Shown here: in pieces, positions 1-19,887 of the stretch
How positions within the stretch are numbered: position 1 is the first letter of the stretch
Layout of the letters: each line of letters begins with the position of its first letter
Source of the DNA: Palleniella intestinalis
Lineage (GTDB): Bacteria; Bacteroidota; Bacteroidia; Bacteroidales; Bacteroidaceae
Assembly: GCF_013166595.1 (NCBI RefSeq)
Contig: NZ_JABKKG010000011.1
Coordinates: forward strand, 62,001-126,000
Length of the DNA stretch: 64,000 nt
Direction: 5' to 3'
Position numbers and translations under genes: made by a program
Notes under the pieces: model-generated
What the model saw: the letters and a program-made list of their open reading frames with translations, nothing else
What the model was told of the DNA's origin: nothing
Database searches by the model: none

Positions 1-1433
1 TGGACATAGAGCTTTCCCAATGTCCTGCCATATGAAGCGAATGCATAAGCCATCGTCTCCTTTATCCTGCTGTCATCGTCATCCACAATGTCCTGTGGAA
101 GGACGGCATAAAAGGACTTGCGTCTCGCCTTGGAATATTCTCCGCCTGCCGACAGATTGCCCGAACATAACGGAAAAGAGAGCACGAGCTTCGTGGCAAC
201 AAGGCTGTTGCGGGTACGGCGGTTGGAGTTCACCTCCATTGCAGTCTCCGGCTTGCCGCTTTCCTCGTAGCGTTCGATATTGCTCACCCTCTCGTTCTTT
301 CCGTACCGGAAATAATCGGCATTGAAGTCGATATTCACCTTCCCGACTTTTCCTGCATAGTAGACATTGGTAAGTGTCGAGGTGGACTGTGCAGGGGAAT
401 GGTAATGTGCCATGGACTTTTCTGCCGGCATGCCGTCACGCGTGGCAATGGAAAGAATGTCTCCGGTACCGGAGTTCTTTGCATAGCGATCATAGCTTAT
501 ACTCGCACCGAAAGAGTGGTTTTCTGCCGGCATGTAGTTTGCCGCCAGGCGCACATAAGGGTTGATGTTTGTGTACTCCTGTGCGATCTCGTTTGTCTGT
601 TCCCAAACCTCATTGAGGAAAGTCTGCTGCCGCAGCTGCTTGTCATCCCGGGAATGGGTGTATGCTCCATAAAGTTGCGCGCTGACATCCAGCTTTCCGG
701 TGCGGTAGTTCATGCTCAGATTCTCGTATGCACTTGTCCGCTTATGCTCGTTGACGGCAAAACTCGTCTTGGTGTCAATACTGAATCCCTCGCCCACAGG
801 CTTCTTTGTGGTGATGCGTATCACGCTCGTCACATGCGCATCGTAGCGTGCACCGGGATTGGTTATAACCTCCACATTCTTTATTTCGTCAGGCTGAAGA
901 CGCTCCAGCTCCATACGGTCGCGCATCTTCCTACCGTTGATGTAAATTTCCGGCGTCCCTCTGCCAAACACCTCTATGGAGCCGTTGCGCGCAGAGACAT
1001 AAGGAATGAGGTTCAGCATATTTTCCATGGAGCCGGCTTTCTCAAGCACTGAGCCTGCAACGATGGTGGTCATGCCCTCACCACGAAGGATGGTTTTAGG
1101 CTGGTGCGCCTTCACCACAACCTCGCCAAGAAGTCTCTCATCCTCATGCAGCTCTATGCTCATGCGCTCCTCACCTCTATACACAACAAATGCTGTCCTG
1201 AATCCAACGGAGGAAACTCTAAGGATATTCCCATTACGGACATTGTCAATAATGAAGTTTCCTGCATTGTCACTCACCGCCCCGCCAAGAAATATGGAAT
1301 CACTTGAGGCCAGTACAGCTATATTGGCAAAACCTACAGGTCTCTTGCTACAGTCCGTCACTGTACCTATCAGACTCTGTGCCCAAGCGCCAAGTCCGGC
1401 AAGCATGAATAATATGGATGTTATCTTTCTCAT
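1..1433 (-). CDS. Outer-membrane beta-barrel / TonB-dependent receptor-like protein, 3' end missing
   Basis: The gene starts at ATG 1433 on the minus strand and runs off the left edge, so about 477 N-terminal codons are visible. The product has a signal peptide (MRKITSILFMLAGLGAWAQS), then a carboxypeptidase-regulatory-like domain at about residues 22-105, a plug-like region with the typical 'VFGRGTPEIYINGRKMRD' and 'EVITNPGARYDA' signatures, and the first barrel strands. This is the pattern of the outer-membrane beta-barrel family related to TonB-dependent receptors, without the SusC 'ELVVVGYG' box. It lies 41 bp downstream of the radical SAM gene on the same strand, so it is probably the third gene of the precursor-maturase operon. 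A role in moving the modified peptide or its ligand across the outer membrane is an inference from position only. Confidence 0.85.
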   Translation of the reverse strand, partial: MRKITSILFMLAGLGAWAQSLIGTVTDCSKRPVGFANIAVLASSDSIFLGGAVSDNAGNFIIDNVRNGNILRVSSVGFRTAFVVYRGEERMSIELHEDERLLGEVVVKAHQPKTILRGEGMTTIVAGSVLEKAGSMENMLNLIPYVSARNGSIEVFGRGTPEIYINGRKMRDRMELERLQPDEIKNVEVITNPGARYDAHVTSVIRITTKKPVGEGFSIDTKTSFAVNEHKRTSAYENLSMNYRTGKLDVSAQLYGAYTHSRDDKQLRQQTFLNEVWEQTNEIAQEYTNINPYVRLAANYMPAENHSFGASISYDRYAKNSGTGDILSIATRDGMPAEKSMAHYHSPAQSTSTLTNVYYAGKVGKVNIDFNADYFRYGKNERVSNIERYEESGKPETAMEVNSNRRTRNSLVATKLVLSFPLCSGNLSAGGEYSKARRKSFYAVLPQDIVDDDDSRIKETMAYAFASYGRTLGKLYV

Positions 1434-1474: not shown

Positions 1475-2797
1475 TCATCTATCATTATGTACCTTCATCT
1501 CACAATACGAAACTGCATCATAGAAAGTCTGTCCTTCAAATACAGGCCTTAGTCTGCAATTCTTCATAATACAATATGTATTCAGCTTGCAATCTTTACA
1601 ATCAGTCAAAACATCAAGAGTAGTTCCTCCCCTATAAATATCCCATTTTGATGACTTCCAAATATCACAGATGTCTTGAGATAAAAGATTTCCAATTTTA
1701 TATTCTTTATGCCCAACTCCAAATATACATGGATAAACATCAAAATTTTCATCCAATGCAAACAATGAATTCCCTGCCGAGCAGGCAATTCTATTTATAG
1801 AAGAAGTTAACCTCATTGTTGAATCATCAGCCAAAATTAATCGTTCACCATATTTCTTCTTTTCCAAGCACAACTGCTGAATAAACTTATTTTCATTATC
1901 ATCTAATATTAAATCTGTATTATAAGCAGCTCTACCTACAGGTCTCAGACGACTTACAAACAAAGAGTCCGCATTTAATTCTAATAAGACATAATCTATA
2001 AGCTTCTCTATTTCAAAAATATTCCTTTTATTTACAGTGCAAGTTATACTGAATGTCACGTGATTTCTCTTCAACTCCTCGAGAATACCTTTAAGAATTA
2101 AGAATGTTCCTTTCCCACGAATATAGTCATGTGTTAAATTACTAATTCCATCCAAAGATATACCCAACTGAATATTTGCTTTTTTTATCATCTTAATATG
2201 ATCAGTGTCCAGCAAAAGTGCATTCGTAAGAATCATTGTCTCATAGTGAACATTAGCCAATAGAGTCAAGAATTTCTTTATATTAGGATGTGAGAATGGC
2301 TCTCCTCCTGTAATTTTCAAAGTCTTTATGCCAGCAACTTCCAACTGTTCTACAACTCTTTCCAATTCAGCATCAGTAAAATCTTTAATAGAGAATTTTG
2401 GCGCAGAGCCTTCAAAGCAATGTTTGCACGACAAATTACAATGCCTCGTTAGAAAAAATTCCACTCTCTCTGGAGAAGACATAGTTCCTGTTGGCAGCTC
2501 CGTGTCTGATATTTTATAATTTACATTTATTCTTTTCTTGTATTCTGGCTCAGGAATCAAAAGATCCAAGAAATCCTTTTGCTCAAGAAATGCAAAGAAA
2601 TCTGTCAAATCGATGCCATGTTTTGCTCCTTCATCCCTGATAAACGAAAATGATATTGCCTGATTATAAAAATATTTTAGAATATAATACAATTTACAGG
2701 AAATATAATAAGTTTTCAAAGATTTCTTATTATAAAGAACATATACCCCTTCACTATCATTTCTAAGTGTATAGTTATAATTAAGAATATAATTCAT
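1475..2797 (-). CDS. Radical SAM/SPASM peptide maturase
   Basis: The 440-residue protein carries the radical SAM cluster motif CxxxCxxC as C120, C124 and C127 (TRHCNLSCKHCFEG). Its C-terminal SPASM region has CSAG...YPC followed by CKDCKLNTYCIMKNC (C-x2-C-x5-C-x3-C) and a last Cys near the end, which fits a seven-cysteine SPASM domain holding auxiliary iron-sulfur clusters. Residues 1-90 contain 'YTLRNDSEGVYVLYNKKS', a start typical of PqqD-like leader-recognition domains in RiPP maturases. The gene lies 71 bp downstream of the 66-residue precursor candidate on the same strand. Family knowledge predicts a thioether, C-C or other radical crosslink in the peptide; which bond and which residues cannot be told from sequence. 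The region is clearly more AT-rich than the housekeeping genes to the right. Confidence 0.9.
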   Translation of the reverse strand: MNYILNYNYTLRNDSEGVYVLYNKKSLKTYYISCKLYYILKYFYNQAISFSFIRDEGAKHGIDLTDFFAFLEQKDFLDLLIPEPEYKKRINVNYKISDTELPTGTMSSPERVEFFLTRHCNLSCKHCFEGSAPKFSIKDFTDAELERVVEQLEVAGIKTLKITGGEPFSHPNIKKFLTLLANVHYETMILTNALLLDTDHIKMIKKANIQLGISLDGISNLTHDYIRGKGTFLILKGILEELKRNHVTFSITCTVNKRNIFEIEKLIDYVLLELNADSLFVSRLRPVGRAAYNTDLILDDNENKFIQQLCLEKKKYGERLILADDSTMRLTSSINRIACSAGNSLFALDENFDVYPCIFGVGHKEYKIGNLLSQDICDIWKSSKWDIYRGGTTLDVLTDCKDCKLNTYCIMKNCRLRPVFEGQTFYDAVSYCEMKVHNDR

Positions 2798-2868: not shown

Positions 2869-3069
2869 CTAGCCTTCACTCTGTATTGGTTTGTCCACAG
2901 GTTTTTGGACTACAACTGTATCAGGAACTTGATTATCACTGCAACACTTTAATGCATAGCCATGCCCTGAGGCTGCCAATCCTTGTACAACAGATGTTAC
3001 ACCAGCTTCACCAGCTTTAACCAAATCTAGTTCTCTTTTATTGAGGCTATCAAAAATTGAATTATTCAT
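2869..3069 (-). CDS. Candidate RiPP precursor peptide
   Basis: A 66-residue peptide immediately upstream of a radical SAM/SPASM enzyme. The N-terminal half, MNNSIFDSLNKRELDLVKAG, resembles the 'L.K.EL..IKGG'-type leaders of Bacteroidota natural-product precursors. It is followed by a small-residue stretch (EAGVTSVVQGLAASGHGYAL), a CC pair at residues 42-43 and a hydrophilic tail rich in V, P, K and Q. No transporter or double-Gly peptidase gene is visible beside it. The ATG at 3069 lies just after a long A/T run, with no strong purine ribosome site, as is usual in Bacteroidota. The family is not one I can name; the RiPP assignment rests on size, leader-like start and gene order. Modification sites are unknown; C42, C43 and nearby residues are plausible. 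Confidence 0.7.
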   Translation of the reverse strand: MNNSIFDSLNKRELDLVKAGEAGVTSVVQGLAASGHGYALKCCSDNQVPDTVVVQKPVDKPIQSEG

Positions 3070-3193: not shown

Positions 3194-3276
3194 CAAAGTT
3201 ATACAAACTCTGACTTTTTATTTTGACACAAAAGTGTATTTGTGTTATATACGATTCGTTTTATACACAAAAGTGT
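3194..3276 (-). promoter_or_regulatory. Precursor promoter with paired ACAC-N4-GTGT boxes
   Basis: On the minus strand TAACTTTG (3194-3201) matches the Bacteroidota -7 element TAnnTTTG. Two identical copies of ACACAAAAGTGT lie upstream at 3226-3237 and 3265-3276. The near box ends 25 bp from the -7 element, which would centre it near -41 to -42, the place where class II activators bind. The boxes are 39 bp apart. The same layout recurs upstream of the acyltransferase and ThiF genes. Confidence 0.75.
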
Positions 3277-3277
3277 G

Positions 3278-3904
3278 TTAACAGGCATTAACCAACCTAT
3301 TGTAATGATTGTAGAAAGGCATAATATCCTCTTTGCTTGAGCATATAGGCACTGTCTCCGAAGCAAGATAGTCCAAGGAATCTCCAAGTTGTCTTGTGTG
3401 TATTCCGAGTGCATTCATAACGCGTAAAAGTTTGCTATCCGTTTCCGCTATCATATAACTATTGTCATCACATACTATAGGATAAACAGCATAAACCATC
3501 AATTGCTTGAATAGTGTCAGCGTGGGCATTCCGGAGAATGAATCTATGGCAAAGCGTCCAACATGCCAATATTCATAAATGGATTCTGAATGTATAGATT
3601 GCAGAGGATTTATACCAAAGATTTTTTCTATTGGCAGTGGTTTATCTTTGTCCCATTTAAAGACACGAATCGAGCCTATCAGTTTGCCTTCTGCATTACG
3701 TACAACATATATATAAGAGTTTCCCGAATAAGACAGTTCCTCCTTGTACACTTTTGAGATTTCCTTTTCCAATTCTTCTGAATCTGCAACTCCTGCATGA
3801 TGTTTGTAGTTTTCACGAACCACAAACTCTGCTAGTTCATACAGGTTTTCCTTACCCAGCTGTAGGATTTCATACACTCCATTTGCATACACTTGTTTTT
3901 CCAT
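3278..3904 (-). CDS. LuxI/FeeM-like N-acyltransferase (GNAT fold)
   Basis: A 208-residue protein with two motifs that resemble autoinducer synthases and N-acyl amino acid synthases. IGSIRVFKW at 76-84 matches the 'iGslRl' strand, and WHVGRFAID at 113-121 is close to the 'WElSRFAVD' signature of LuxI-type enzymes. A later stretch, ETDSKLLRVMNALGIHTRQLGD at about 154-175, resembles the C-terminal part of the same fold. There is no signal peptide or membrane segment. Known members join a fatty acyl group, usually from acyl-ACP, to an amino acid or homoserine lactone; here the product is unknown. It is divergent from a LuxR-type regulator and ends just upstream of the precursor promoter. A plain GNAT acetyltransferase acting on the peptide is the alternative. 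Confidence 0.65.
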   Translation of the reverse strand: MEKQVYANGVYEILQLGKENLYELAEFVVRENYKHHAGVADSEELEKEISKVYKEELSYSGNSYIYVVRNAEGKLIGSIRVFKWDKDKPLPIEKIFGINPLQSIHSESIYEYWHVGRFAIDSFSGMPTLTLFKQLMVYAVYPIVCDDNSYMIAETDSKLLRVMNALGIHTRQLGDSLDYLASETVPICSSKEDIMPFYNHYNRLVNAC

Positions 3905-3973: not shown

Positions 3974-4096
3974 CAAAGTTAGCAGAAGGATTGCACTTTG
4001 CCTTTACACAAAAGTGTATTTCCACAACAAGTGTATGATTTTTTACACTTTTGTGTGTTAAAATGTTGTCCAATTACAATTTTATTATTACTTTTG
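3974..4096. promoter_or_regulatory. Shared divergent promoter of acyltransferase and LuxR-type gene
   Basis: For the minus strand, TAACTTTG (3974-3981) is the -7 element of the acyltransferase. Boxes ACACAAAAGTGT (4006-4017) and ACACTTTTGTGT (4045-4056) lie 25 and 64 bp upstream of it, the same spacing as at the precursor promoter. For the plus strand, TACTTTTG (4089-4096) is a -7 element for the regulator, with the nearest box 33 bp upstream. One pair of boxes could therefore control both genes. Confidence 0.7.
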
Positions 4097-4121: not shown

Positions 4122-4874
4122 ATGGTAACAAGAGATTTCTTCATTATATCAAATGCAGTTCACGGCATCACAGACGCAGATTATAAGCTGGCAGACCTTC
4201 TTGTGAATGCGGCTAAGGCTTTTGCAAGAAGCACTCATCAAGGAGTATACATCATTGACTATTTCAAAATGAATTTCCTTTATGTATCGGAGAATCTTGC
4301 AAATTGGTGCGGTGTGCCGGCTGACAAAATCAGGGAATTCGGCTACCAAATTTATGTGGACCATGTACCGGAAGAGGAGCAAAAGATGCTCATTGAAATA
4401 AACAGAAGCGGGTTCAACCTCTTTGAGACCATTCCGGTGGAAGAACGTCTTGACTATACCATTTCTTATGATTTCCACTTCATCACAGGGCGAAAAAAAC
4501 AGTTGATAAACCACAACCTTACCCCTATGACACTGACAAAGGACGGAAGAATTTGGTTAGCACTATGCACTGTGGCTATGTCCTCACGCAGCACTCCGGG
4601 ACATATAGTAATGAGAAAATCAGATTCTGAAACATACTACGAGTACTCACTCGACAAACACAAATGGATTGTAAAAAATAATGTAACCTTAAGCGGCATA
4701 GAACGTGACGTTCTGATACTCTCCGCCCAAGGCTACACTATGAATGAAATTGCTGACAACCTATGCAAATCCATTGATACAATAAAAGCCTGCAAAAGAA
4801 CTTTGTTTGTGAAACTTGGAGTCAGGAACATCGCAGAAGCCCTTTCTTATGCCACAAACTACAAACTCATATAA
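4122..4874 (+). CDS. PAS-LuxR-type transcriptional regulator
   Basis: The 250-residue protein has a PAS-like sensory region at about 35-165 (YIIDYFKMNFLYVSENLANW, HVPEEEQK) and a C-terminal LuxR/GerE helix-turn-helix at about 187-250, with 'LSGIERDVLILSAQGYTMNEIA' and 'SIDTIKACKRTLFVKLGVRN'. There is no receiver domain with phosphorylatable Asp, so it is not a classical response regulator. It starts at ATG 4122 after a -7 element at 4089-4096. It is divergent from the acyltransferase and convergent with ThiF, with only 10 bp between the two stop codons. Binding to the ACAC-N4-GTGT boxes and sensing of an acylated product are inferences from neighbourhood. PAS-LuxR regulators are common in Bacteroidales and mostly uncharacterised. 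Confidence 0.85.
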   Translation: MVTRDFFIISNAVHGITDADYKLADLLVNAAKAFARSTHQGVYIIDYFKMNFLYVSENLANWCGVPADKIREFGYQIYVDHVPEEEQKMLIEINRSGFNLFETIPVEERLDYTISYDFHFITGRKKQLINHNLTPMTLTKDGRIWLALCTVAMSSRSTPGHIVMRKSDSETYYEYSLDKHKWIVKNNVTLSGIERDVLILSAQGYTMNEIADNLCKSIDTIKACKRTLFVKLGVRNIAEALSYATNYKLI

Positions 4875-4884
4875 GTATTTTCTA

Positions 4885-5643
4885 TCAACGTGCAGTCTCG
4901 CACATCAATGATGACAAATAGAATTTTGGGAAATATTTCACCTCCTTGCCTGCAACAATGTTATACATAGCATTGACACAATGACCGGCTGCAATCCACG
5001 AACCAACAGATAACTGTGGAGGTGGCAGCACCGCAGCTTCACGCTTGTATTCCTCTACAATGCCTGCCAGCCATTGGTTTGGAAGATTCCAGAAGGCCTC
5101 ATAATTCGATACATACTCGGCGACCTTCAGTTCAAAACCACGATAGTCTTTTGACAATTCCGTCAGTCTGTAGCCTTCAGGCTTGACTATTGTAAGGAAT
5201 CCTGCCCAACCGAAATTATAAGGATGAAGCACAGGAATATGTTCCCGCGAGCATATTTCGTCAAAAACAAAAGGAATATCGCTCTTGAAATCCAAGGCAT
5301 TGATGGCTATGTCATGTCCTTTGACAAGGCCTTCCACATTCTCATGGTCAATGAAAGAATTCACAAAAGCAATGCTGGCAGAAGGATTTATGCCCAACAG
5401 CCTTTTGGCAAGTGCTTCTGCCTTGTATGTGCCAATATCCCCCTCTGTATAGTTCTGACGGTTGAGGTTGCTCAACTCCACTTTGTCACCATCGACAATA
5501 GTGATATTCTCAAAGCCGAAACGCAAAGCGCATTCTGCTATGATACTGCCAATACCGGCACCCCCTAAAAGGATATGGGTATTTCTGACTTTTTCCTGCT
5601 CTTCCGCATTGACATAAATGCGATTCCTGCTGTATCTTTCCAT
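4885..5643 (-). CDS. ThiF/E1-like adenylating enzyme
   Basis: From ATG 5643 the product is 252 residues. It has the nucleotide-binding glycine loop LLGGAGIGS at 25-33, DGDKVELSNLNRQ at 51-63 and the Lys of GTYKAEAL (K74), the hallmarks of MoeB/ThiF/MccB adenylyltransferases. No CxxC zinc pairs, rhodanese domain or partner ubiquitin-like protein is seen. An upstream in-frame ATG at 5742 is rejected because the promoter and boxes lie between 5667 and 5748. Known relatives adenylate the C-terminus of a carrier protein or peptide; MccB does this in microcin C synthesis. The shared promoter layout suggests that it works with the precursor or the acyltransferase product. It is distinct from tcdA at 51256. 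Confidence 0.85.
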   Translation of the reverse strand: MERYSRNRIYVNAEEQEKVRNTHILLGGAGIGSIIAECALRFGFENITIVDGDKVELSNLNRQNYTEGDIGTYKAEALAKRLLGINPSASIAFVNSFIDHENVEGLVKGHDIAINALDFKSDIPFVFDEICSREHIPVLHPYNFGWAGFLTIVKPEGYRLTELSKDYRGFELKVAEYVSNYEAFWNLPNQWLAGIVEEYKREAAVLPPPQLSVGSWIAAGHCVNAMYNIVAGKEVKYFPKFYLSSLMCETAR

Positions 5644-5666: not shown

Positions 5667-5748
5667 CAAAGTTACAAATGGTTTTGAAACTTACATAGAA
5701 TAAAAGTGATTTTTTGATTGATGCTCTGCAAAGTATACACAAAAGTGT
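5667..5748 (-). promoter_or_regulatory. ThiF gene promoter with the same box pair
   Basis: TAACTTTG (complement of 5667-5674) is followed upstream by a degenerate box GAATAAAAGTGA (5698-5709, 8 of 12 matches) and an exact ACACAAAAGTGT (5737-5748). The spacing is 24 and 63 bp from the -7 element and 39 bp between boxes, nearly the same as at the other two promoters. Confidence 0.65.
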
Positions 5749-5918: not shown

Positions 5919-6098
5919 ATGACAGCTACAATCCAAAACCCTTACGCCGCATGGCTCATCATAGGATGCGCGGCACTGGTACTGCTCATCGTCTTCGGAA
6001 GCACAATATGCCACCGGCTTGCCATTTTCAACCACAAGCACCACATCGTGGAGTGGGACGACAGTTCTGTTTACACTTGGGAGGATGATGACGAATAA
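5919..6098 (+). CDS. Small single-span membrane protein
   Basis: A 59-residue reading frame with a hydrophobic segment at about 11-30 (AWLIIGCAALVLLIVFGSTI) and a His- and acid-rich tail ending in EDDDE. It starts 34 bp after a -7 element, and its 3' end overlaps the start of the exporter subunit gene by 14 bp, which suggests translational coupling. I do not recognise the family. The link to the exporter is positional. Confidence 0.65.
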   Translation: MTATIQNPYAAWLIIGCAALVLLIVFGSTICHRLAIFNHKHHIVEWDDSSVYTWEDDDE

Positions 6099-6867
6099 GG
6101 AAAAAGGCGCAGGAATGCTCGGGACATTCCTGTGCAGCTACGCCACCACACTGCTGGAATGCGGGGCGGCGACGGTGAGGATAGAGAAGAATGTCGGTCG
6201 CATGGCGGAGGCTTACGGCGGAGATGCCGAAGTGAGCATCTATCCGCGGCATGTGGAAGTGGTGCTGAAGGACGACGAGAGCGGAACGACGGAGGTATGC
6301 AGCAAGGCCATCAGCGGCAGCGTAATAAACTATTCCACCGTCAGCGCACTGAGCAAACTCAGCTGGAACTGCCTTGACCGCCACACACCGCTGCCTGTCG
6401 CCATGAGGCAGTACCGAAGAATCACCCATGCTACAAGGATTCCCTTGTGGGCGGTGACCTTGCTTGCCGCCCTCGCAAACGCATCGTTCTGCCGTCTTTT
6501 CGAAGGCGACCGGCAAGCGATGGGCATTGTCTTCCTTGCCACTGTCTGCGGCTTCCACCTGCGAAGTGTGCTCTGCAAGAGGCATGGCGTCGACATGCGC
6601 ATAGCGACAATTCTTGCCGCCTGCGTCTCCTCGGTGCTTTCCTGCTCATGCTATGTCTTCGGCATAGGCAGCACTCCCGACATAGCGTTAGGCACAAGTG
6701 TGCTCTATCTCATACCGGGCATTCCCTACCTGAACGCTGTCAGCGACCTCATCAACGGGCATCACATCTGTGCCATGAGCCGCTTCGTCCATGCCATAAC
6801 CATCACCGTGTGCCTGTCCATAGGGCTTTACCTCGGACTTGCATTGATGAGTTTCCAAGGATTCTGA
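6085..6867 (+). CDS. Threonine/serine exporter family protein, ThrE/YjjP-like subunit
   Basis: From ATG 6085 the product is 260 residues. The first ~115 residues are soluble (LLECGAATVRIEKNVGRMAEAYG, the typical DUF1212 opening) and are followed by about five membrane segments, with LIPGIPYLNAVSDLI matching the conserved 'PG.P..N...D' loop. The ThrE fold is split over two genes here, with the short partner at 7058-7531, as in the YjjP/YjjB pair that exports succinate in E. coli. The upstream in-frame start at 6019 lies inside the small membrane gene and is not used in this call. The exported solute cannot be told. Confidence 0.85.
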   Translation: MMTNKEKGAGMLGTFLCSYATTLLECGAATVRIEKNVGRMAEAYGGDAEVSIYPRHVEVVLKDDESGTTEVCSKAISGSVINYSTVSALSKLSWNCLDRHTPLPVAMRQYRRITHATRIPLWAVTLLAALANASFCRLFEGDRQAMGIVFLATVCGFHLRSVLCKRHGVDMRIATILAACVSSVLSCSCYVFGIGSTPDIALGTSVLYLIPGIPYLNAVSDLINGHHICAMSRFVHAITITVCLSIGLYLGLALMSFQGF

Positions 6868-6926: not shown

Positions 6927-7012
6927 AAAGATAACCTTTCGCACTGCAAAGTGTTACCTTTTGCCATACGAAAGGTTACCTTTTGCGTCATAAACCGTTA
7001 CCTTTCGCCAAG
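6927..7012. repeat. Dispersed repeat family A, copy 1
   Basis: A block of alternating GTTACCTTT and CGCA/TTGC units between the two exporter subunit genes, including 'ataacctttcgcactgcaaa' and 'gaaaggttaccttttgc'. Related blocks occur near 18210-18336, 40138-40240 and 52077-52166. This copy lacks the TTTTTTAGCA end seen in the others. Confidence 0.6.
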
Positions 7013-7057
7013 AGAAACATTTCCACACAATTCACCACACATCACGACTACCACAAC

Positions 7058-7531
7058 ATGCTACCAATAATCGAAGATTCATTCTTTGCCGCAATAGCCG
7101 CAATCGGCTTCGGAAGCATAAGCAACGTGCCTGTCAAGGCTTTCACAGGATGTGCCATCCTCGCCGCTGCGGGGCATGCGACAAGGACACTGCTGACAGG
7201 GCAGTTTGGCATCGACATCATCCCCGCCAGCTTCATCGGCAGTATCGTCATAGGTCTGCTGTCAATCCCCGTCTCGTCCCATTGGAAGGCACCGGCGGAA
7301 AGCATGTCCTTCCCTGCCCTCTTGCCCATGATTCCGGGAATGTATGCCTACCGCGCCATGCAGGCACTCATCGCCTGCGTGCAGCACACATCCGAGAGTG
7401 AGTTCATGCACCAGCTGTATCTGCTGAACTATAACGGGCTCGTCTGCTGCACAATAGTGCTGCTGATGTTCCTCGGTGTGACAGTGCCGATATTCTGTTT
7501 CAAACGGTATTCCTTCTCTGCCACACGCTGA
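7058..7531 (+). CDS. Threonine/serine exporter family protein, YjjB-like subunit
   Basis: A 157-residue membrane protein starting MLPIIEDSFF, with about four to five hydrophobic helices and the conserved LLPMIPGMYAYRAM loop found in YjjB/DUF3815 proteins. The in-frame upstream ATG at 6983 would lie within a repeat block and is less likely. It is the partner of the YjjP-like protein; the two genes are separated by 190 bp filled by a family A repeat, an unusual gap for an obligate pair. Confidence 0.85.
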   Translation: MLPIIEDSFFAAIAAIGFGSISNVPVKAFTGCAILAAAGHATRTLLTGQFGIDIIPASFIGSIVIGLLSIPVSSHWKAPAESMSFPALLPMIPGMYAYRAMQALIACVQHTSESEFMHQLYLLNYNGLVCCTIVLLMFLGVTVPIFCFKRYSFSATR

Positions 7532-8896: not shown

Positions 8897-10306
8897 ATGA
8901 TATTTACTATAATTATAATCTATTTTGCATTGCTCTTCCTTTTCGGCAGACTTACTTCCGGAAAGGCGGGCAATGATGCTTTTTTCCGTGCGGAAAGGAA
9001 GTCACGGTGGTACATGGTGGCGTTCGGCATGGTCGGTGCAAGTGTGTCTGGAGTCACTTTTGTGTCTGTCCCCGGCATGGTGATGACACAGCAGATGACG
9101 TATCTGCAGATGTGCATGGGGTTTGTGGTCGGATATTTTGCCGTGGCGTACATCCTTCTGCCATTGTATTACCGCCTGAACCTCACTTCAATTTACACTT
9201 ATCTCGGCAAAAGGCTTGGAAAACGTAGCTACAAGACCGGTGCATGGTTCTTCCTTCTGTCGAAACTGTCAGGCTCGGCGATAAAGTTCTATGTCGTATG
9301 TATGCTGCTCCAGAGTTTTGTGCTTGACGCTTACGGCATACCGTTTTGGGCTACCGTGGCGGGACTTGTCGCAATGATATGGCTCTACACACAGCGTGGG
9401 GGCATAAAGACATTGGTGTGGACGGACACATTGCAGACGGCATGCATGCTCGTTTCGGCAGGGCTTATCATCGTTGCCGTCACTGACAAACTCGGCATGT
9501 CTTTCGCTGAACTGTTGCGGACGGTATGGGACGACAGCCATTCGCGCATCTTTGTCTTTGACGACTTTGGCTCAACACAGAACTTTTGGAAACAGTTTCT
9601 GTCGGGAATCTTCACTGTGATTGTGATGACAGGTCTTGACCAGGATGTCATGCAGAAGAATCTCACGTGCAGAACCTTGCATGATGCGCGCAAGGACATG
9701 TGCTCCTACGGCATGGCGTTTGTGCCTGTAAATGCCATGTTCCTGTTTCTTGGTGTGCTGTTGCTGATGCTGTGCCGGCAGGATGGTGTCCCTGTGCCGG
9801 ATAAAGGCGACGAGTTGTTGCCTATGTTTGCTGCAACGGGAGAGCTTGGGACATGGGCTGCGGTGCTTTTCTTTATAGGTATTGTCTCGACATCCTTCTC
9901 CACTGCCGACTCAACCCTTACTTCTTTGACAACAAGTTTCTGCGTGGATATATGCGAGAACACGCATAATGAGCAGCTGCGCAAGAGGGTTCACATCGGA
10001 GTTGCCGTGGTGTTTGCGCTTGCCGTGGTGCTTTTTGGCAGCATAGGCTCGTCAAGTGTCATCAATCTTGTCTATACTGTTGTCGGCTACACCTATGGTC
10101 CGCTGCTGGGACTGTTTGCCTTCGGACTGTTCACAAGGTGTGGTGTGAGGGACAGGTTTGTGCCTGTTGTGTGCGTCATGGCTCCCGTTTTATGCTTTGC
10201 CATAAACGAAATAGTCCGTAACCTCCTTGGATACCAATTCGGTTACGAACTACTTATGCTTAATGGTTTGCTCACCTTTGTGGGGTTAGCTATTTTAAGG
10301 TGTTAG
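8897..10306 (+). CDS. Sodium:solute symporter family protein
   Basis: From the ATG at 8897 the protein is 469 residues with about 13 predicted membrane segments. 'GASVSGVTFVSVPGMV' near the N-terminus and 'LTSIYTYLGKRLG' are typical of the SSS/SLC5 family. The ORF is open back to 8813, but the residues before 8897 are basic and unlike a family N-terminus, so MIFTIIIIYFALLFLFGRLT is preferred; the start remains uncertain. It follows the LysR gene by 120 bp on the same strand. The substrate is unknown. The downstream end is convergent with a DUF5686 gene, and a 14-bp palindrome TGACAGTACTGTCA (10339-10352) lies between them. Confidence 0.88.
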   Translation: MIFTIIIIYFALLFLFGRLTSGKAGNDAFFRAERKSRWYMVAFGMVGASVSGVTFVSVPGMVMTQQMTYLQMCMGFVVGYFAVAYILLPLYYRLNLTSIYTYLGKRLGKRSYKTGAWFFLLSKLSGSAIKFYVVCMLLQSFVLDAYGIPFWATVAGLVAMIWLYTQRGGIKTLVWTDTLQTACMLVSAGLIIVAVTDKLGMSFAELLRTVWDDSHSRIFVFDDFGSTQNFWKQFLSGIFTVIVMTGLDQDVMQKNLTCRTLHDARKDMCSYGMAFVPVNAMFLFLGVLLLMLCRQDGVPVPDKGDELLPMFAATGELGTWAAVLFFIGIVSTSFSTADSTLTSLTTSFCVDICENTHNEQLRKRVHIGVAVVFALAVVLFGSIGSSSVINLVYTVVGYTYGPLLGLFAFGLFTRCGVRDRFVPVVCVMAPVLCFAINEIVRNLLGYQFGYELLMLNGLLTFVGLAILRC

Positions 10307-10385
10307 TTTTTTTGTGGGGCTGGCAAAATTGTCAGTAATGACAGTACTGTCAATTATGTCAATATTGTCTGCCTCCCCTCCCCCT

Positions 10386-12947
10386 TTAGAACGTCATGTT
10401 GACCGCGAAGCGCACACCATTCTTTATGGCTGTGTCAAGGTCGTTGTATGACAGGCGGTGGATATAGTCAACTTCAAGGAACTTGAAGATGTTGTGTACA
10501 CCCACACACACTTCCGCATAGGGCTTGTTGCTCATGATGTTACATCCGACAGGGAACTGCAGCAAGACATCACTTCCTGCATTCTCCGGCAGGTAAGGGT
10601 TGTTCTTGTTGGTCAGTTTGCCGTACATTCCGCGGAAAGAGATGAACTCACGCCATTTCAGTTTCTTAAGCAACGGCACGCGGTTGAAGAGCTTTCCGTT
10701 AAGATCCCAAGAGACATGCCACATGGCATAGCGGTCATTGAGGAACTCCATGTTGTTCATCAGCTGGAATGTATATGTTCCCGGTTGTGAAAGCCAGCCA
10801 AGGTTGACGCGCGGCATGATGAGCAATGGGAACGGGACAACGTCCCACTGTGCTCCTCCTGCTACATAGATGTCGAGTTTTCCCCATGAATTGAGCCAGA
10901 AACGCTTGTAGATTGACGCCTCCGTGAAGTTCATCTTGTACTTTCCGCCAAGCACTCCGTCAACGGCAACGGTATGGTCAATGGCGAAAATTGGCGCATC
11001 GAGGTTGATTGGGTAACGGCGCTGCTTTGTGTTGATGAAGGTCTCTCCCGGGGCGAAACGGAAGCCTATGTGTGCCTCTGTAGTACGGATTTCCTTGTCA
11101 AATGGTGAGCCGTCAATCGCACGGAATTGCATTTCAGCCGCACCTTTGATGCCTTCGGCCTTCAATCCTATGGTCGTTGCGAAGCCTGCAAGTGTCTCGT
11201 ACTTGAATTCAAGCTGCTGGCGGTTGTAGAAATAGAGCTTGTCCACTTCGCGTGTCTTGAACGCCATGAACATGTTATCCTTGTTTGTCAGCAGGAATTT
11301 GTCCGACGGTGACATTATGTCATATTCCGAAAGGAAAGTGAACTGGCGTATCGGGAACTCCCAAGGTTCCCTGTGCTTCTTGTTCAGAGACCATGTGAAC
11401 TGCGTCGAATAGTACCATTTCGCACTCTCTGCACCGTAAGCCACGTAGCCGTTCCAGAATAGATGGTTGTTCAATGCAGCAGTGGTGCGGCCTGAAAGCC
11501 TGAATCGCCATCCGTCAACAATGTTCTTGTTGATGATTGTGTTGACAGGGCCGATGTCAAACTTTGACGGTATGGAGTCACTTAGGGTGCATTCCACATA
11601 GTTATTCATGAAGGCTTTGAGCACAAAGAGGACGGTCTTCATGCCAGGAATGTTTGCCACACTCTTGGCGAATCCGCCCACACTCTCCTCGGATTTTGTC
11701 AGCTTCACCGTGCGGAACTGGTTCCAGAAGTCCTTTCCTCGGTTACGTGCATCCTGGTCGACGACATGCGTTGCCGTGCCACGGAAGTCACGTTTCGGAA
11801 GTTCCGTGAAACTGTAGTTTGAGAGTTTTGTGGTTCTTATCACCACCGCATTGTTAAGCATGCGGTTGAGTTTCAGTTCGACAAGCATGTTGTCTGTGTC
11901 GAGCACCCACTGTCCGTCAGGGAGTTTGACATATTCCTGTTCAATCTTCATGTTGTCCACGAAGTTGACATCCGACTTCTTTGGTATGGTCAGCGACACT
12001 TTGCGTACATGGAGCGTGGAGTCGTTGAGCACCCATATATCGCCACGGAATCCGAAGTCCTGCTGGTTGTTAGGGACAAATGTCAGGCGGATGCACTGGT
12101 CTTTGTCAATAAGGCAGGTGTCTACAATGTAGTAACGGTAGAAACCTATTGCGTCCTTGCCTATCGGTGAGGTGAAAGGGAACTGCAGAAGGCGCACCTG
12201 GTCGTCATAGATGTCCACGTCGGTAAAGATGTCCTTCATTGATGCGTCAAGGATGTTTCCTGCCGTTTCCACAAGGTTAGCCACACCGGTAGAGCTTTCT
12301 CCAAGGACAGTGGTCTTCTCTGCACGCGGGCTTTTCCTGTACACTTTTCGGGAAACCGTCTCGGAAATCTGCACAGGGCATATCAGTTTGCCGTTCATAG
12401 GGCAAACCTCTATCTGGTCGACAAGCCAATCTTTATTGCCTTTCTCCTTTTGTTCCTGAATGTCTTCAGGAGAGACATTGTTCTTGGCAAGCGTAAGTTT
12501 CTGGTATTTGTAGAACTCATAATAGCTGTTGTTGTCAAGGTCGGTCTTCTTCTTTGCAGCGATGACCCGCTTCATGAGTTCCACGGCAGGATTGTTCTTG
12601 CGTGAATACTTGCCGCGTTTTGACTTGACAACGACCTCTTGGAGTTGCTTTGTGTCCGGTTTGAGCTTTACCACTATGTGGTTCTTGGTCTTCTCATTGA
12701 CGAGGATTTCCTTCGTCTTGTAGCCCATAGCGGTAAAATAAAGTTTCCATCCATTGTGCCTTGCAATGGAGAAACGTCCGTTATAGTCCGCCGCAGCCAT
12801 GACATGATGGGTGCGGTAGACAACGCCTGCCATCGGGATGCTGTCTCCTGTGGCAGCATCTATGACAACGCCTGTTATCTTTTGAGAAAATGCGCCTGCT
12901 GCCACCATTAGCAGCAGGACGCATGATATGAAAAGTCTTTTTACCAT
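10386..12947 (-). CDS. DUF5686 / carboxypeptidase-like regulatory domain outer-membrane protein
   Basis: From ATG 12947 the product is 853 residues. It starts with a signal peptide (MVKRLFISCVLLLMVAAGAFSQ) and a carboxypeptidase-regulatory-like domain at about 23-105 (KITGVVIDAATGDSIPMAGVVY). A long DUF5686 region follows, with the family phrase 'SYYEFYKYQKLTLAKNN' and a predicted C-terminal beta-barrel ending in a terminal Phe (VRFAVNMTF). The function of DUF5686 proteins is unknown. It lies 10 bp after the inositol-3-phosphate synthase gene in the same direction, so it may be the last gene of the inositol-lipid operon. The in-frame ATG at 12998 overlaps that gene and would spoil the signal peptide. 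Confidence 0.85.
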   Translation of the reverse strand: MVKRLFISCVLLLMVAAGAFSQKITGVVIDAATGDSIPMAGVVYRTHHVMAAADYNGRFSIARHNGWKLYFTAMGYKTKEILVNEKTKNHIVVKLKPDTKQLQEVVVKSKRGKYSRKNNPAVELMKRVIAAKKKTDLDNNSYYEFYKYQKLTLAKNNVSPEDIQEQKEKGNKDWLVDQIEVCPMNGKLICPVQISETVSRKVYRKSPRAEKTTVLGESSTGVANLVETAGNILDASMKDIFTDVDIYDDQVRLLQFPFTSPIGKDAIGFYRYYIVDTCLIDKDQCIRLTFVPNNQQDFGFRGDIWVLNDSTLHVRKVSLTIPKKSDVNFVDNMKIEQEYVKLPDGQWVLDTDNMLVELKLNRMLNNAVVIRTTKLSNYSFTELPKRDFRGTATHVVDQDARNRGKDFWNQFRTVKLTKSEESVGGFAKSVANIPGMKTVLFVLKAFMNNYVECTLSDSIPSKFDIGPVNTIINKNIVDGWRFRLSGRTTAALNNHLFWNGYVAYGAESAKWYYSTQFTWSLNKKHREPWEFPIRQFTFLSEYDIMSPSDKFLLTNKDNMFMAFKTREVDKLYFYNRQQLEFKYETLAGFATTIGLKAEGIKGAAEMQFRAIDGSPFDKEIRTTEAHIGFRFAPGETFINTKQRRYPINLDAPIFAIDHTVAVDGVLGGKYKMNFTEASIYKRFWLNSWGKLDIYVAGGAQWDVVPFPLLIMPRVNLGWLSQPGTYTFQLMNNMEFLNDRYAMWHVSWDLNGKLFNRVPLLKKLKWREFISFRGMYGKLTNKNNPYLPENAGSDVLLQFPVGCNIMSNKPYAEVCVGVHNIFKFLEVDYIHRLSYNDLDTAIKNGVRFAVNMTF

Positions 12948-12957
12948 CAAATGTTTT

Positions 12958-14265
12958 TTAGTCAAGTTCCTCGTCAGCCTCATAGCCGCCCATCTCACGG
13001 ATGGCGTTCTTGAGGATAGTGTACTGCTGGTAGAGGTGGTTTACAGGAACCTCTCCCTTGGTGTAGTCGTGCATAGGAGACTTCAGGAAGAATGAGAGGA
13101 AACGCTGGTTGCCAACCTTGCCTGCACGTGCTGCGAGGTCAGAGAGGAGTACGAGGTCAAGGCATACCGGAGCAGCGAGGATGGAGTCGCGGCACAGGAA
13201 GTTGATCTTGATCTGCATTGGGTAGCCCATCCATCCGAAGATGTCGATGTTGTCCCAAGCCTCCTTCTCGTCGTTGCGAGGTGGATAGTAGTTGATGCGC
13301 ACCTTATGGTAATAGTCTGTATAGAGGTCAGGCTGCTTCTCTGCCATGAGGATTGACTCGAGAGTTGAGAGCTTTGAAACCTCCTTTGTGCGGAAGTTTG
13401 CAGGCTCATCGAGCACAAGACCGTCGCGGTTGCCGAGGATGTTTGTTGAGAACCATCCGTTCAGGCCGAGGCAGCGTGTACCGATGATTGGAGCGAAACC
13501 GGACTTTACGAGAGTCTGTCCTGTCTTGAAGTCCTTGCCGCAGATAGGCATCTGAGTCTTCTCGGCCATCTCCCACATTGCAGGGATGTCAACTGTTGTG
13601 TTAGGAGCACCCATGATGAATGGTGCACCCTCAGCAAGAGCAGCGTAAGCGTAGCACATTGAAGGAGCGATGTTCTTTGTATCGTTTGCCTTCATGGCAG
13701 CCTCAAGGTGCTCAAGTGTGTCATGCACCGCCATGTTGATTGGCACATAAACCTCTGTAGAGGCAGCCCACAGCATCACGATGCGGTCACAATTGTTGAC
13801 AGCCTTGAACTCTTTGATGTCGTTACGAAGAGCTTCAACCATCTCCCAACGTGTCTTGCAGTCCTTCACATGTGTGCCATCAAGGCGCGCAGCGAAATCC
13901 TTGTCGAAGCAAGCCTTCATTGGGACAATCTTCTCCAACTCATCCTGGACAGGGAGAATGTCCTTTGCCTTGAGCACATCAGCATTGACTGCTGCCTCGA
14001 AAGCGTTTGCAGTATATACGTCCCAAGTACCGAATACAATATCGTTGAGGTCTGTGAGTGGCACGATTTCTCCGTATGACAGGTACTTCTTGTCATCACC
14101 CTTGCCCACACGGATTTTGTCATACTGCGTCATTGAACCAACAGGCTTTGCCAGACCCTTGCGAGCCATGAGCACACCTGTCATAAACGTTGTGGAGACT
14201 GCTCCGCAGCCAACAACCATAACGCCAAGTTTGCCGGTTGCCGGCTTTACATTTGATTTTGTCAT
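12958..14265 (-). CDS. ino1: Inositol-3-phosphate synthase
   Basis: The 435-residue enzyme converts glucose 6-phosphate to myo-inositol 3-phosphate with NAD as internal redox cofactor. The N-terminal Rossmann loop GVMVVGCGAVSTTFMTGVL, the GTRCLGLNGWFSTNILGNRDG region and the Lys-rich active-site stretch KEVSKLSTLES match bacterial inositol-phosphate synthases. It lies 84 bp downstream of the AUR1/PAP2-type gene on the same strand. With the genes from 14350 to 16736 it forms an inositol-lipid set of the kind described in gut Bacteroides. In that setting it supplies the head group for phosphoinositol lipids and phosphoinositol sphingolipids. Confidence 0.93.
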   Translation of the reverse strand: MTKSNVKPATGKLGVMVVGCGAVSTTFMTGVLMARKGLAKPVGSMTQYDKIRVGKGDDKKYLSYGEIVPLTDLNDIVFGTWDVYTANAFEAAVNADVLKAKDILPVQDELEKIVPMKACFDKDFAARLDGTHVKDCKTRWEMVEALRNDIKEFKAVNNCDRIVMLWAASTEVYVPINMAVHDTLEHLEAAMKANDTKNIAPSMCYAYAALAEGAPFIMGAPNTTVDIPAMWEMAEKTQMPICGKDFKTGQTLVKSGFAPIIGTRCLGLNGWFSTNILGNRDGLVLDEPANFRTKEVSKLSTLESILMAEKQPDLYTDYYHKVRINYYPPRNDEKEAWDNIDIFGWMGYPMQIKINFLCRDSILAAPVCLDLVLLSDLAARAGKVGNQRFLSFFLKSPMHDYTKGEVPVNHLYQQYTILKNAIREMGGYEADEELD

Positions 14266-14349
14266 AATTACTTTTGAAGTTAATATGTTAGTGTTATTAT
14301 AGGATTATATTCATGTCCGCATCCTGCTCCGGAAAGCATTTTTGCGGAA

Positions 14350-15111
14350 TCATTTTTCCCACATTCTCTTGATGAACCGCTCATAAATGGCTATTCCGGC
14401 TACAGATGCCAGCACGCCGAGTACCACATCTATTATATAATGGTGTCCGCTGTAAACTGCGGAGAACCATATTCCCACCGACACAACGGCAAGGATTGTC
14501 TGCCAGATGCGGTTATCAGGCTTCTTCATTGCGTAGTAGAACGCTATCGGATTGTAAGCGGAATGCAGTGACGGAATTGCCGCAAAGACATTCGCGTTCT
14601 TGTCATAGAAATCATGGAAGAACGGTATTCCCGTTATCGCATCACAGTTTGCGAAGCCTGCTGCCGAACCTTTCGTGTCCGTTATCACATTGAATCCATG
14701 GTCCATGACATACCACGGCGGTGCGGAAGGGTATATGTAGTATCCGATGAAGCCCACCACATTGACCATGAGGAATGCCCATGTGATGTTCCGCGCAAGG
14801 TCCTGCCTGCCCTGGAAATACAGTACTATCGCGTAGATGAACGGCAACGGCACCCAGCACAGATAGAACAGTCCCGACAGCACGTCAAAGACAGCCCAAT
14901 GGTGGATGCGGAAATATTCCGAAGGTATCACCCTCGTGCCATCCTCCAATGTCATTCCGAAGAGTGCTTTCTCCAGATTGTACACCCCTTCCGTGTCCAC
15001 TGTCCCGAACTTGTAGTTCGGGAAGAGCCCGAGAAGGAAATACACGGCAATGAAGATGATGACGGGCAACAGAATCAGCGACGTTTCTTTTACAGTCTTA
15101 TTCAGTTCCAT
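14350..15111 (-). CDS. PAP2/AUR1-type inositol phosphorylceramide synthase candidate
   Basis: A 253-residue membrane protein with six or so hydrophobic helices and the lipid phosphatase/transferase motifs IPSLHSAYNP and YSGHHYIIDVVLG, which contain the catalytic histidines and aspartate. These are closer to the AUR1-type inositolphosphotransferase motifs than to the KxxxxxxRP class, whose first motif is absent. In the context of an inositol-phosphate synthase and a CDP-alcohol phosphatidyltransferase, the likely reaction is transfer of phosphoinositol from phosphatidylinositol to ceramide. The precise acceptor is an inference. Confidence 0.8.
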   Translation of the reverse strand: MELNKTVKETSLILLPVIIFIAVYFLLGLFPNYKFGTVDTEGVYNLEKALFGMTLEDGTRVIPSEYFRIHHWAVFDVLSGLFYLCWVPLPFIYAIVLYFQGRQDLARNITWAFLMVNVVGFIGYYIYPSAPPWYVMDHGFNVITDTKGSAAGFANCDAITGIPFFHDFYDKNANVFAAIPSLHSAYNPIAFYYAMKKPDNRIWQTILAVVSVGIWFSAVYSGHHYIIDVVLGVLASVAGIAIYERFIKRMWEK

Positions 15112-15133
15112 TACATTTCTTTCTTTTCAAAAA

Positions 15134-15790
15134 TCACAGCTGGTTCTTGACATGCAGTATGCGGTAGAACGCCGTATAGTTGGCAAGAATGGCGATAACA
15201 GCCTGCGTAACCACAACGAACCACAGCGCGTCAAAGCCTACAAGCGAACCGCAGAAACCACAGAGAATCATGCCAAGGATAGTCACCACCACACGTTCAG
15301 GCCTCTGCATAAGTCCCACCTTGCACTCAAGATCAAGCCCTTCGGCACGCGCACGGACATAGCTGACCATGATGCTGCCTATCAGGGAGCAGAATGTCAC
15401 CACCGCAGCCCATGGATGCCCTGTCTGCATGAAGTAGAATGCCAGTCCGGAAAGCGTCAGCAGTTCACAGTAGCGGTCAAGGACAGAGTCGTAGAACGCA
15501 CCGAACACTGTGCACATGTCTGCAGTGCGTGCCATGTAACCGTCCACCATGTCCATTATCGAGGACACGATAATCACTACTCCGGCCCACCCAACCAATG
15601 AGTAGTCGCCTTTCTCCGCATAGAGTGCGGCATAGACAAGCATCGCCGCTCCGGCAGCATTGCCAAGCATGCCGAGCGTTGTCACAACGTTTGGCGTTAT
15701 ACCTATCTTCACTGCCGCCCTCACTCCGGGGTCTATGACTTTATATATAAGGTGCTGAATGCCGTCCCTTATGCTGTCGTAAAGTTTCAT
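15134..15790 (-). CDS. CDP-alcohol phosphatidyltransferase, probable phosphatidylinositol-phosphate synthase
   Basis: A 218-residue membrane enzyme with the complete CDP-alcohol motif D-x2-DG-x2-AR-x8-G-x3-D-x3-D, visible in MDMVDGYMARTADMCTVFGA followed by FYDSVLD. About six membrane helices follow. The family joins CDP-diacylglycerol to an alcohol phosphate or alcohol. Placed next to an inositol-3-phosphate synthase and a PgpA-type phosphatase, it most likely forms phosphatidylinositol phosphate. Its start overlaps the GtrA stop by one base, indicating coupled translation. The alternative is an ordinary phosphatidylglycerophosphate synthase, which the neighbours make less likely. Confidence 0.85.
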   Translation of the reverse strand: MKLYDSIRDGIQHLIYKVIDPGVRAAVKIGITPNVVTTLGMLGNAAGAAMLVYAALYAEKGDYSLVGWAGVVIIVSSIMDMVDGYMARTADMCTVFGAFYDSVLDRYCELLTLSGLAFYFMQTGHPWAAVVTFCSLIGSIMVSYVRARAEGLDLECKVGLMQRPERVVVTILGMILCGFCGSLVGFDALWFVVVTQAVIAILANYTAFYRILHVKNQL

Positions 15791-16215
15791 TATTTCTTAT
15801 AAACGTAATATTTCTGTGTCGTAAAATTCCATGCTACAGCCACCACCACGGCGACAATCGCTTTCACCGTCATCACAAGCCCGAGATTCTGGTCTGTCCA
15901 AAGTCCTGAGCATCGCACTAACTTGACGCCCCATTCCGTGCCTGCCGTGTTAAACATGACACTGCCAAGCCAAACTGCCACATATCGGCACAGCACGCCT
16001 CTCTTGGTCCTGCATGTACCCTTGAACGTCCAGCAGTAGTTTATGCTGCAGTTGACTGCACCGCCGGTGAATGCGCCTAATGCCGTGCTTGCCACGACAT
16101 GATGCGTCAGGCTGAACACTCCTGCCGTCGCCACAAAGTCGCAGAAAGTGGATAGCAATGACGAAACCTGAGCCTTGCTGAACTCTTTCACACCGTTCCT
16201 GCCCATCATCACCAT
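15790..16215 (-). CDS. GtrA-family membrane protein
   Basis: A 141-residue, four-helix GtrA-like protein with the typical 'FVATAGVFSLTHHVVASTALGAFTGGAVNCSINYCWTF' arrangement of helices around a conserved Asn-Tyr pair. Family members are thought to help move polyprenyl-linked sugars or related lipids across the membrane. The gene overlaps both neighbours, PgpA upstream and the CDP-alcohol enzyme downstream. Several close ATG codons at 16215, 16209 and 16206 are possible starts. A flippase role for inositol lipids is only inferred from position. Confidence 0.8.
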   Translation of the reverse strand: MVMMGRNGVKEFSKAQVSSLLSTFCDFVATAGVFSLTHHVVASTALGAFTGGAVNCSINYCWTFKGTCRTKRGVLCRYVAVWLGSVMFNTAGTEWGVKLVRCSGLWTDQNLGLVMTVKAIVAVVVAVAWNFTTQKYYVYKK

Positions 16216-16736
16216 ATTTCAACCACCATCCTGATGCCCCAAAGAGCCACCGCGCCATACACTCCGGCAAGTATATCATCAAGCATGACACCCCAGCCGC
16301 CGTGGAGGTTCTTATCCAACCAACGGCAGCCGAGTGGCTTCACTATGTCCATAATACGGAAAAGCAGGAACGCCCCAAGGACATACTGCCATTCCATTGT
16401 CGCAGGGACGGCAAGGAGAGTGACCCAAACACCTGCCATTTCGTCCACGACAACCCTCGAAGGGTCTGCGCCCCAATGTTTCTCGAGACGGTTTATCGGC
16501 GCAATGCTGACAAGCGTAGAGACAACAGCAAGCATTGCCGTGACATACAACACCTCTTGGTACGACGAGCATACCACAGGCATTCCAAGTCCGGCAAACG
16601 CCCCAGAATACAGGCACCATATCAGGGTTGCCACGGCAGCACCGGCTGTTCCCGGGCCCCATGGCCAGAATCCTGCACCAAATCCTGTGCCTATAACGAC
16701 ATCAATGATGTTCGGTCTGTTTTTCATATCTGGCAT
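16209..16736 (-). CDS. Phosphatidylglycerophosphatase A-like; probable phosphatidylinositol-phosphate phosphatase
   Basis: The 175-residue product from ATG 16736 has the PgpA features FGAGFWPWGPGTAGA near the N-terminus, DPSRVVVDEMAGVWV in the centre and LLFRIMDIVKPLGCRWLD towards the end. There are about four membrane helices. PgpA enzymes remove the terminal phosphate from phosphatidylglycerol phosphate; within this operon the natural substrate is likely phosphatidylinositol phosphate. It is the first gene of the cluster. The open frame extends to 16814, but the added residues are basic and soluble and do not resemble PgpA, so the internal start is preferred. Confidence 0.83.
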   Translation of the reverse strand: MPDMKNRPNIIDVVIGTGFGAGFWPWGPGTAGAAVATLIWCLYSGAFAGLGMPVVCSSYQEVLYVTAMLAVVSTLVSIAPINRLEKHWGADPSRVVVDEMAGVWVTLLAVPATMEWQYVLGAFLLFRIMDIVKPLGCRWLDKNLHGGWGVMLDDILAGVYGAVALWGIRMVVEIW

Positions 16737-19856: not shown

Positions 19857-19887
19857 TTTCCTTTCGGTTTTCAGACTATTCCGGCAT

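Follow-up and report, generated by a model that had tools for sequence, protein, structure and literature searches.

The gene acylT (positions 3278 to 3904, minus strand; 208 amino acids) lies in a 64,000-nucleotide stretch of the Palleniella intestinalis genome, hereafter the window, and encodes a FeeM/LuxI-like N-acyltransferase that we propose to be a signal synthase. We read acylT as the synthase gene of a LuxI/LuxR-like autoinduction cassette, whose signal would be an N-acyl amino acid, probably cyclized by the ThiF-like protein encoded nearby. The balance of evidence tips toward this reading by a limited margin only; the circuit is inferred from DNA, and neither product nor ligand has been tested.

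AcylT is encoded by a single-copy gene in its own 3.51-Mb genome. An initial annotation, made from the sequence alone, had likened the stretches IGSIRVFKW (residues 76 to 84) and WHVGRFAID (residues 113 to 121) to autoinducer and N-acyl amino acid synthases, and this claim held, supported both by the profile matches of relatives and by the fold. In an alignment of 44 AcylT sequences, with relatives 38 to 69% identical, I79, R80, W84, W113, H114, G116, R117, F118, and A119 are invariant. The window protein itself matches the Pfam FeeM profile with an E value of 0.0015 and 18.7 bits, below the curated cut-off of 27, and the NCBIfam profile exosort_acyl with an E value of 1.8e-4, again below the curated cut-off. 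The FeeM profile is matched by every one of the 12 sequences in a first alignment (best E value, 2.4e-6) and by 8 of 10 relatives in a second set, and its cut-off of 27 bits is exceeded by two relatives, at loci L100 (32.3 bits) and L123 (31.2 bits). We consider the case for the family firm because of these FeeM matches among relatives and the invariant residues, and the likeness of AcylT to autoinducer and N-acyl amino acid synthases exceeds chance. The 24-bit cut-off of the LuxI profile PF00765 was not reached by the AcylT relatives scanned, the best of which scored 15.8 bits, and a PF00765 search of the P. intestinalis genome returned no match at an E value of 0.01 or lower, control genomes being equally silent. 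The profile search proposed with the initial annotation thus gave a FeeM match, below cut-off for the window protein and above it for two relatives, and no LuxI match at cut-off. PDB sequence-profile matches for AcylT were designed or unrelated proteins, without FeeM or LuxI among them, and were discarded as chance.

The AlphaFold2 model of AcylT (pLDDT, 93.4; pTM, 0.90) shows the FeeM fold. Foldseek placed LasI first (1.6e-8), followed by FeeM and TofI, and VIA-align ranked FeeM highest (2g0b_C; Z 16.4, rmsd 2.9, 173 residues aligned), then LasI (14.9), TofI (14.5 and 14.3), and RpaI (14.2), such that the acyl-homoserine lactone (AHL) synthase type of the GNAT fold is also represented within the top five by Z score. 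The best ordinary GNATs follow from Z 14.1 down in VIA-align, and the margin over them is small for the AHL synthases and more than 2 units for FeeM. Placement of the model among ordinary small-molecule GNATs would have refuted the initial annotation; the comparison was run and did not do so, as FeeM and then AHL synthases rank ahead. In low-identity alignments with LasI, R70 and R104 are retained in AcylT as R80 and R117, the second motif reads WHVGRFAID in AcylT versus WELSRFAIN in LasI, and E101, the LuxI-family glutamate, is replaced by the invariant histidine H114. No acidic residues of AcylT align with the S-adenosylmethionine (SAM)-binding aspartates D44 and D47 of LasI. Because of the change of E101 to histidine and the unaligned SAM-binding aspartates, we infer that a FeeM-like reaction with a free amino acid as acceptor is more likely than a SAM-dependent one, and the earlier suggestion of a product other than a classical AHL is reasonable on the same grounds; the acylated product itself has not been shown. 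AcylT thus resembles FeeM (PDB 2g0b, PF21926) in being closest to it in structure and in the profile matches across its family, and differs in that the window protein scores below the curated FeeM cut-off. Its resemblance to the LuxI-type synthases (LasI, TofI, BjaI, and RpaI) lies in the next-best fold matches and in the counterparts of R70 and R104; it differs from them at E101 and the SAM aspartates and falls below the PF00765 cut-off.

The acylT gene belongs to a conserved cassette, composed of acylT, a divergent luxR, and a thiF gene convergent with luxR, and nearly all loci have this layout. Under strict orientation and spacing rules, we counted 59 complete cassettes in the same order and orientation, the window and 58 further loci, of which 34 are nonredundant at 80% AcylT identity; the flanks past thiF are unrelated between lineages. 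AcylT matches were found in 4 of 393 genomes of the order, 12 of 301 of the family, and 14 of 200 of the genus, and an alignment-based scan of named genomes yielded 117 loci, 80 of which were retained; single-protein scans of genome contigs, viral contigs, and plasmids returned no AcylT relative. In the Bacteroidales, the loci occur in Bacteroides (including Bacteroides fragilis Q1F2), Prevotella, Segatella, Parabacteroides distasonis, Tannerella, and Muribaculaceae, and in the Flavobacteriales, in Tenacibaculum, Aquimarina, Zobellia, Flavobacterium, Lacinutrix, and Chryseobacterium, the hosts being gut, oral, and marine Bacteroidota. The framing of acylT as a peculiarity of a Bacteroidales genome was therefore too narrow, and the initial annotation had missed the ThiF partner, the common operators, the cargo of natural-product genes, and the occurrence outside the order. 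The window AcylT is 69% identical to Bacteroides proteins versus about 55% to most Prevotella ones, and because of this closer relationship to Bacteroides we take the cassette to be patchy and probably mobile. Eight loci at which a partner is missing or displaced were pursued at the genome level, and in seven of these eight genomes a cassette-type ThiF of at least 49% identity is encoded; the lone exception is a Tannerella metagenome assembly. At three loci (L052, L054, and L055), acylT is frameshifted or a remnant and the genes for LuxR-PAS and ThiF remain intact, a pattern that receptor-only listeners would be expected to show.

The luxR gene (positions 4122 to 4874, plus strand; 250 amino acids) encodes the proposed signal receptor and activator, with an N-terminal PAS domain and a LuxR-type helix-turn-helix (HTH). 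That the partner is a LuxR-type protein with a PAS domain had been claimed at the outset and held, in the GerE HTH match (E value, 3e-8), in the AlphaFold2 model (pLDDT, 91.8), which shows the PAS domain followed by the LuxR-type HTH, and in the solved folds that match it. The closest of these is 3clo, a LuxR-type protein of Bacteroides thetaiotaomicron (E value, 1.3e-15; Z 16.1), whose entry states no function, and chains of VqmA occupy Foldseek ranks 3 to 10. VqmA, in VqmA-DPO quorum sensing, is, like the cassette regulator, a PAS plus LuxR-type HTH protein, and serves as the receptor of a small-molecule signal. Its ligand DPO is a pyrazine, the synthesis of which is not known to involve an AcylT/ThiF pair. 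The PAS domain is thus no argument against quorum sensing, because VqmA, itself a PAS-HTH protein, is a quorum receptor. LuxI-type systems resemble the cassette in the pairing of the synthase gene with a LuxR-type regulator and in a lux-box-like operator near -42; their regulators carry an AHL-binding domain, whereas that of the cassette carries a PAS domain instead. To our knowledge, FeeM is not known to adjoin LuxR-PAS and ThiF genes under a common operator.

The third gene, thiF (positions 4885 to 5643, minus strand; 252 amino acids), encodes a ThiF/E1-like adenylyltransferase, the proposed carboxylate-activating cyclase, and starts at the ATG at position 5643 rather than at the TTG at 5742 given in the list of open reading frames. 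The protein matches the Pfam ThiF profile with an E value of 1.3e-34, and 20 ThiF sequences are invariant at G30, G32, and S33 of the nucleotide loop, at D51-G52-D53, in the SNLNRQ motif, and at K74 and D118, the last being, by inference, the counterpart of TrzS D217. The nearest solved structures are 9egb, 9egc, and 9egd, followed by TcdA, an enzyme that cyclizes the carboxylate of an N-carbamoyl amino acid. Entries 9egb to 9egd, each with at least seven chains, represent a direct homolog of ThiF from another species (E value, 1e-96 over the full length); their names give no function, and no linked paper was found in the literature searched. These deposits show that the ThiF component has been studied by another group, and work on the system may be under way elsewhere. 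Genes of a split ThrE-type threonine/serine exporter adjoin thiF (positions 6019 to 6867 and 6983 to 7531, plus strand), with a LysR regulator next, and no neighbor group on the far side of thiF recurs across lineages.

The pairing of AcylT and ThiF has a chemical precedent in oxazolone pathways, in which an N-acyltransferase makes an N-acyl amino acid, a ThiF-like enzyme cyclizes it with ATP, and a flavin oxidase desaturates the product (PMC12856293, PMC12479983). N-acyl oxazolones are made by an N-acyltransferase and a ThiF-like cyclase in other phyla (PMC12856293), and the OxzAB, TyzACB, and TrzAS systems share with the cassette the combination of an N-acyltransferase and a ThiF-like ATP-dependent cyclase (PMC12856293, PMC12479983). 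The adenylation residues of the ThiF cyclases of these pathways are all kept in the cassette ThiF. The pathways include a flavin oxidase, and the cassette differs from them in adding to the pair a LuxR-PAS regulator and common operators. No flavin-dependent oxidase (nitroreductase) was seen among the annotated conserved neighbor groups, in the absence of a dedicated profile search, and for this reason the expected product would be an azlactone that is saturated, or else a lactone where the side chain of the amino acid bears a hydroxyl. The authors of the oxazolone work pointed out that oxazolones resemble acyl-homoserine lactones and left their role open (PMC12856293), and a signaling role is merely suggested in the literature.

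A common operator and promoter architecture joins the three transcription units. The palindrome TACACTTTTGTGTA precedes acylT/luxR, thiF, and the cargo operon at about 45 to 150 times the background, and in its generalized form it reaches 9.4, 2.9, and 3.5 occurrences per kb, respectively, versus 0.064 elsewhere, over the 58 loci. The pattern was drawn up once these regions had been inspected; the spacing, phasing, and promoter distance reported below are not part of it. The window contains five exact copies of ACACAAAAGTGT, to which no strand is assigned, every one at a cassette promoter. A proximal site (positions 4006 to 4017; predicted, without binding data) and a distal site (4045 to 4056), 39 bp apart, lie in the acylT/luxR intergenic region; a predicted proximal site (3226 to 3237) and a distal site (3265 to 3276), the latter directly after the acylT stop codon and again 39 bp away, precede the RiPP cargo; and a single site lies upstream of thiF (5737 to 5748), about 95 bp before its ATG. 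One-mismatch matches to ACACAAAAGTGT number seven in the window versus 0.42 expected. Six exact copies are found genome-wide (3.5 Mb), and the sixth was rejected as a regulon member, being located inside a leucyl-tRNA synthetase gene.

Across loci, the two operators of the acylT pair are spaced by 38 to 39 bp, except in Chryseobacterium, where the spacing is 28 bp and thus shorter by roughly one helical turn. Operators of different promoters are more similar within a locus (0.835) than between loci (0.742), a value not attained in any of 2,000 permutations, and those of locus L089, for instance, read TACCC..GGGTA throughout. The motif TAnnTTTG, the Bacteroidota-type -7 element, starts exactly 30 bp from the operator center at 17 acylT, 14 thiF, and 14 cargo promoters of the nonredundant set, versus no case in the upstream control. 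In the window, it is represented by TAACTTTG in the promoters of acylT (positions 3974 to 3981, minus strand) and of the cargo operon (3194 to 3201, minus strand), starting 30 bp from the operator center in both. This distance places the operator near -42, which is the position of the lux box. The architecture is not universal, as the thiF promoter of the window has the operator and lacks TAnnTTTG at +30, and several flavobacterial cassettes (L109, L111, L114, L117, L119, and L124) have no operator match in the acylT/luxR region.

Downstream of acylT, on the same strand, lie natural-product operons that differ between loci. In the window, the cargo encodes a RiPP precursor-like peptide of 66 amino acids (positions 2869 to 3069, minus strand), a radical SAM/SPASM peptide maturase (1475 to 2797, minus strand; 440 amino acids; Radical_SAM E value, 2.4e-21; SPASM E value, 1.7e-6), and an outer-membrane beta-barrel protein (3 to 1433, minus strand), which has 772 amino acids in all and runs past the window edge; a C39-peptidase ABC exporter (732 amino acids) is encoded next, outside the window. 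A homolog of the 66-residue peptide (60% over 40 amino acids) adjoins another cassette, that of Prevotella ihumii (L037). Elsewhere, the cargo consists of LanB, LanC, and luciferase-like genes (L127), an NRPS after a NusG-like gene (L124), a PKS (L117), DAHP synthase and chorismate mutase (L109), or O-antigen ligase or glycosyltransferase genes (L062 and L077). We infer from this gene context that the cassette acts like a control head that can be exchanged between cargoes.

Several cargo regions merit separate mention. In Segatella baroniae (L099, around 10001 to 20471), Prevotella jejuni (L105), and L065 (6660 to 10627), N-terminally truncated, split, or duplicated acylT genes directly precede separate cargo operons, and recombination within acylT might capture or swap cargo there. 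The P. ihumii loci L087 and L037 carry a decayed form of the window-type RiPP cargo (8126 to 8466 of L037), with a 58-residue peptide and a 41-residue radical SAM remnant, and an unidentified open reading frame of 538 amino acids, perhaps an insertion element, between acylT and luxR. In flavobacteria (L124, 10720 to 11241; L112, L116, and L120), a NusG-like gene (173 amino acids) stands between acylT and giant NRPS genes, raising the possibility of processive antitermination of the NRPS cargo. Finally, the radical-SAM RiPP cargo of L071 (14806 to 17780) includes a related pair of proteins of 418 and 501 amino acids, the larger being a DUF6734 protein, which are possible new RiPP components.

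Our working model is that AcylT would acylate an amino acid at its amine and that ThiF would adenylate the free carboxylate of the resulting N-acyl amino acid and cyclize it to an azlactone/oxazolone or a lactone. The cyclized product, or the N-acyl amino acid itself, would leave and re-enter cells and bind the PAS domain of the LuxR-type protein, which in its ligand-bound form would bind the palindromes centered near -42 and activate three promoters: that of acylT, in a positive feedback, that of thiF, and that of the adjoining natural-product operon, here the radical-SAM RiPP. The arrangement matches an autoinducer loop, in that synthase, modifying enzyme, and output have one operator and the adjoining LuxR-type gene encodes the only conserved DNA-binding protein. 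The fold, the conservation of the cassette, the common operator and promoter geometry, and the nature of the cargo are results of computation; the binding of LuxR to the operators and the ensuing activation, the identity of the ligand with the product, the cyclization of the AcylT product by ThiF, and the movement of the signal between cells are all inferences. Against the circuit stand the AcylT scores below the FeeM and LuxI cut-offs, the histidine in place of the LuxI glutamate, the lack of an oxidase among the annotated conserved neighbors, and the other inputs (redox, light, or metabolites) that PAS domains also sense.

Among the alternatives, the one that we regard as a real possibility is that AcylT and ThiF make an effector lipid, such as an antimicrobial, a surfactant, or a stress lipid, rather than a signal, and that the PAS sensor detects something else and co-regulates weapons. 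No signaling role has been proven for the known oxazolones and N-acyl tyrosines, and some are antimicrobial; moreover, redox and metabolites are frequent inputs of PAS domains. Speaking against it, very different cargo accompanies the same three genes, the promoters of synthase and cargo are alike in operator architecture, as they would be in an autoinducer loop, and the fold of the regulator is closest, among characterized proteins, to a quorum receptor. It is improbable that AcylT and ThiF serve in tailoring or self-protection, acylating and activating the product of the cargo. The two genes always adjoin biosynthetic cargo and are co-regulated with it, but radical-SAM RiPPs, lanthipeptides, NRPS, PKS, and glycan-type genes offer no common substrate, and ThiF can be encoded elsewhere in the genome; cargo-specific tailoring was rejected since the cargo is too diverse.

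We give little credence to AcylT being an ordinary GNAT that acts on small molecules and has no relation to autoinducer synthases. All these proteins share the GNAT fold, and the best ordinary member (Z 14.1) scores only slightly below the AHL synthases (14.2 to 14.9), but FeeM stands 2 Z units higher, the FeeM profile matches nearly all relatives scanned, two of them above cut-off, the WHxGRFA motif is conserved as in FeeM and LuxI, and the gene context is autoinducer-like; an ordinary GNAT identity was rejected on fold ranking and context. Equally remote is the possibility that AcylT makes a true AHL from SAM and that ThiF serves another step. There are reports of AHLs from Tenacibaculum maritimum and from the human gut (PMC9738069), but the SAM-holding aspartates of LuxI are unaligned in AcylT, E101 is a histidine, and the PF00765 cut-off is not reached.

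Returning to the autoinduction reading, we infer that the cassette is a variant of LuxI/LuxR-like quorum sensing in which the chemistry is of the oxazolone type and the receptor resembles VqmA. It is apparently undescribed: the literature searched, on ThiF/LuxR/acyltransferase signaling in Bacteroidota, on 9EGB, and on azlactone signaling, yielded no account of it, preprints and most subscription papers being out of scope. A bolder reading, against which we still lean slightly, is that the cassette represents a third type of quorum sensing by acyl signals that is native to Bacteroidota, in which ThiF cyclizes the N-acyl amino acid made by a FeeM/LuxI-like enzyme to an azlactone-type autoinducer, a PAS-LuxR protein is the receptor, and the whole is a control head that natural-product clusters can exchange.

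Measurements have revealed AHLs in the human gut, and Bacteroides carries luxR-type genes, yet no synthase gene was found (PMC9738069); T. maritimum reportedly produces AHLs. Acyl-signal quorum sensing in Bacteroidota thus lacks a recognized synthase, and the cassette offers candidate genes and promoters for it. What bacterial N-acyl oxazolones do physiologically is likewise open (PMC12856293), and these concrete genes and promoters bear on both gaps, the missing synthase and the role of the oxazolones. Together, the palindrome and the -7 element provide a handle to find, and possibly to activate, silent gene clusters for RiPPs, lanthipeptides, NRPS, and PKS in Bacteroidota from gut, oral, and marine sources.
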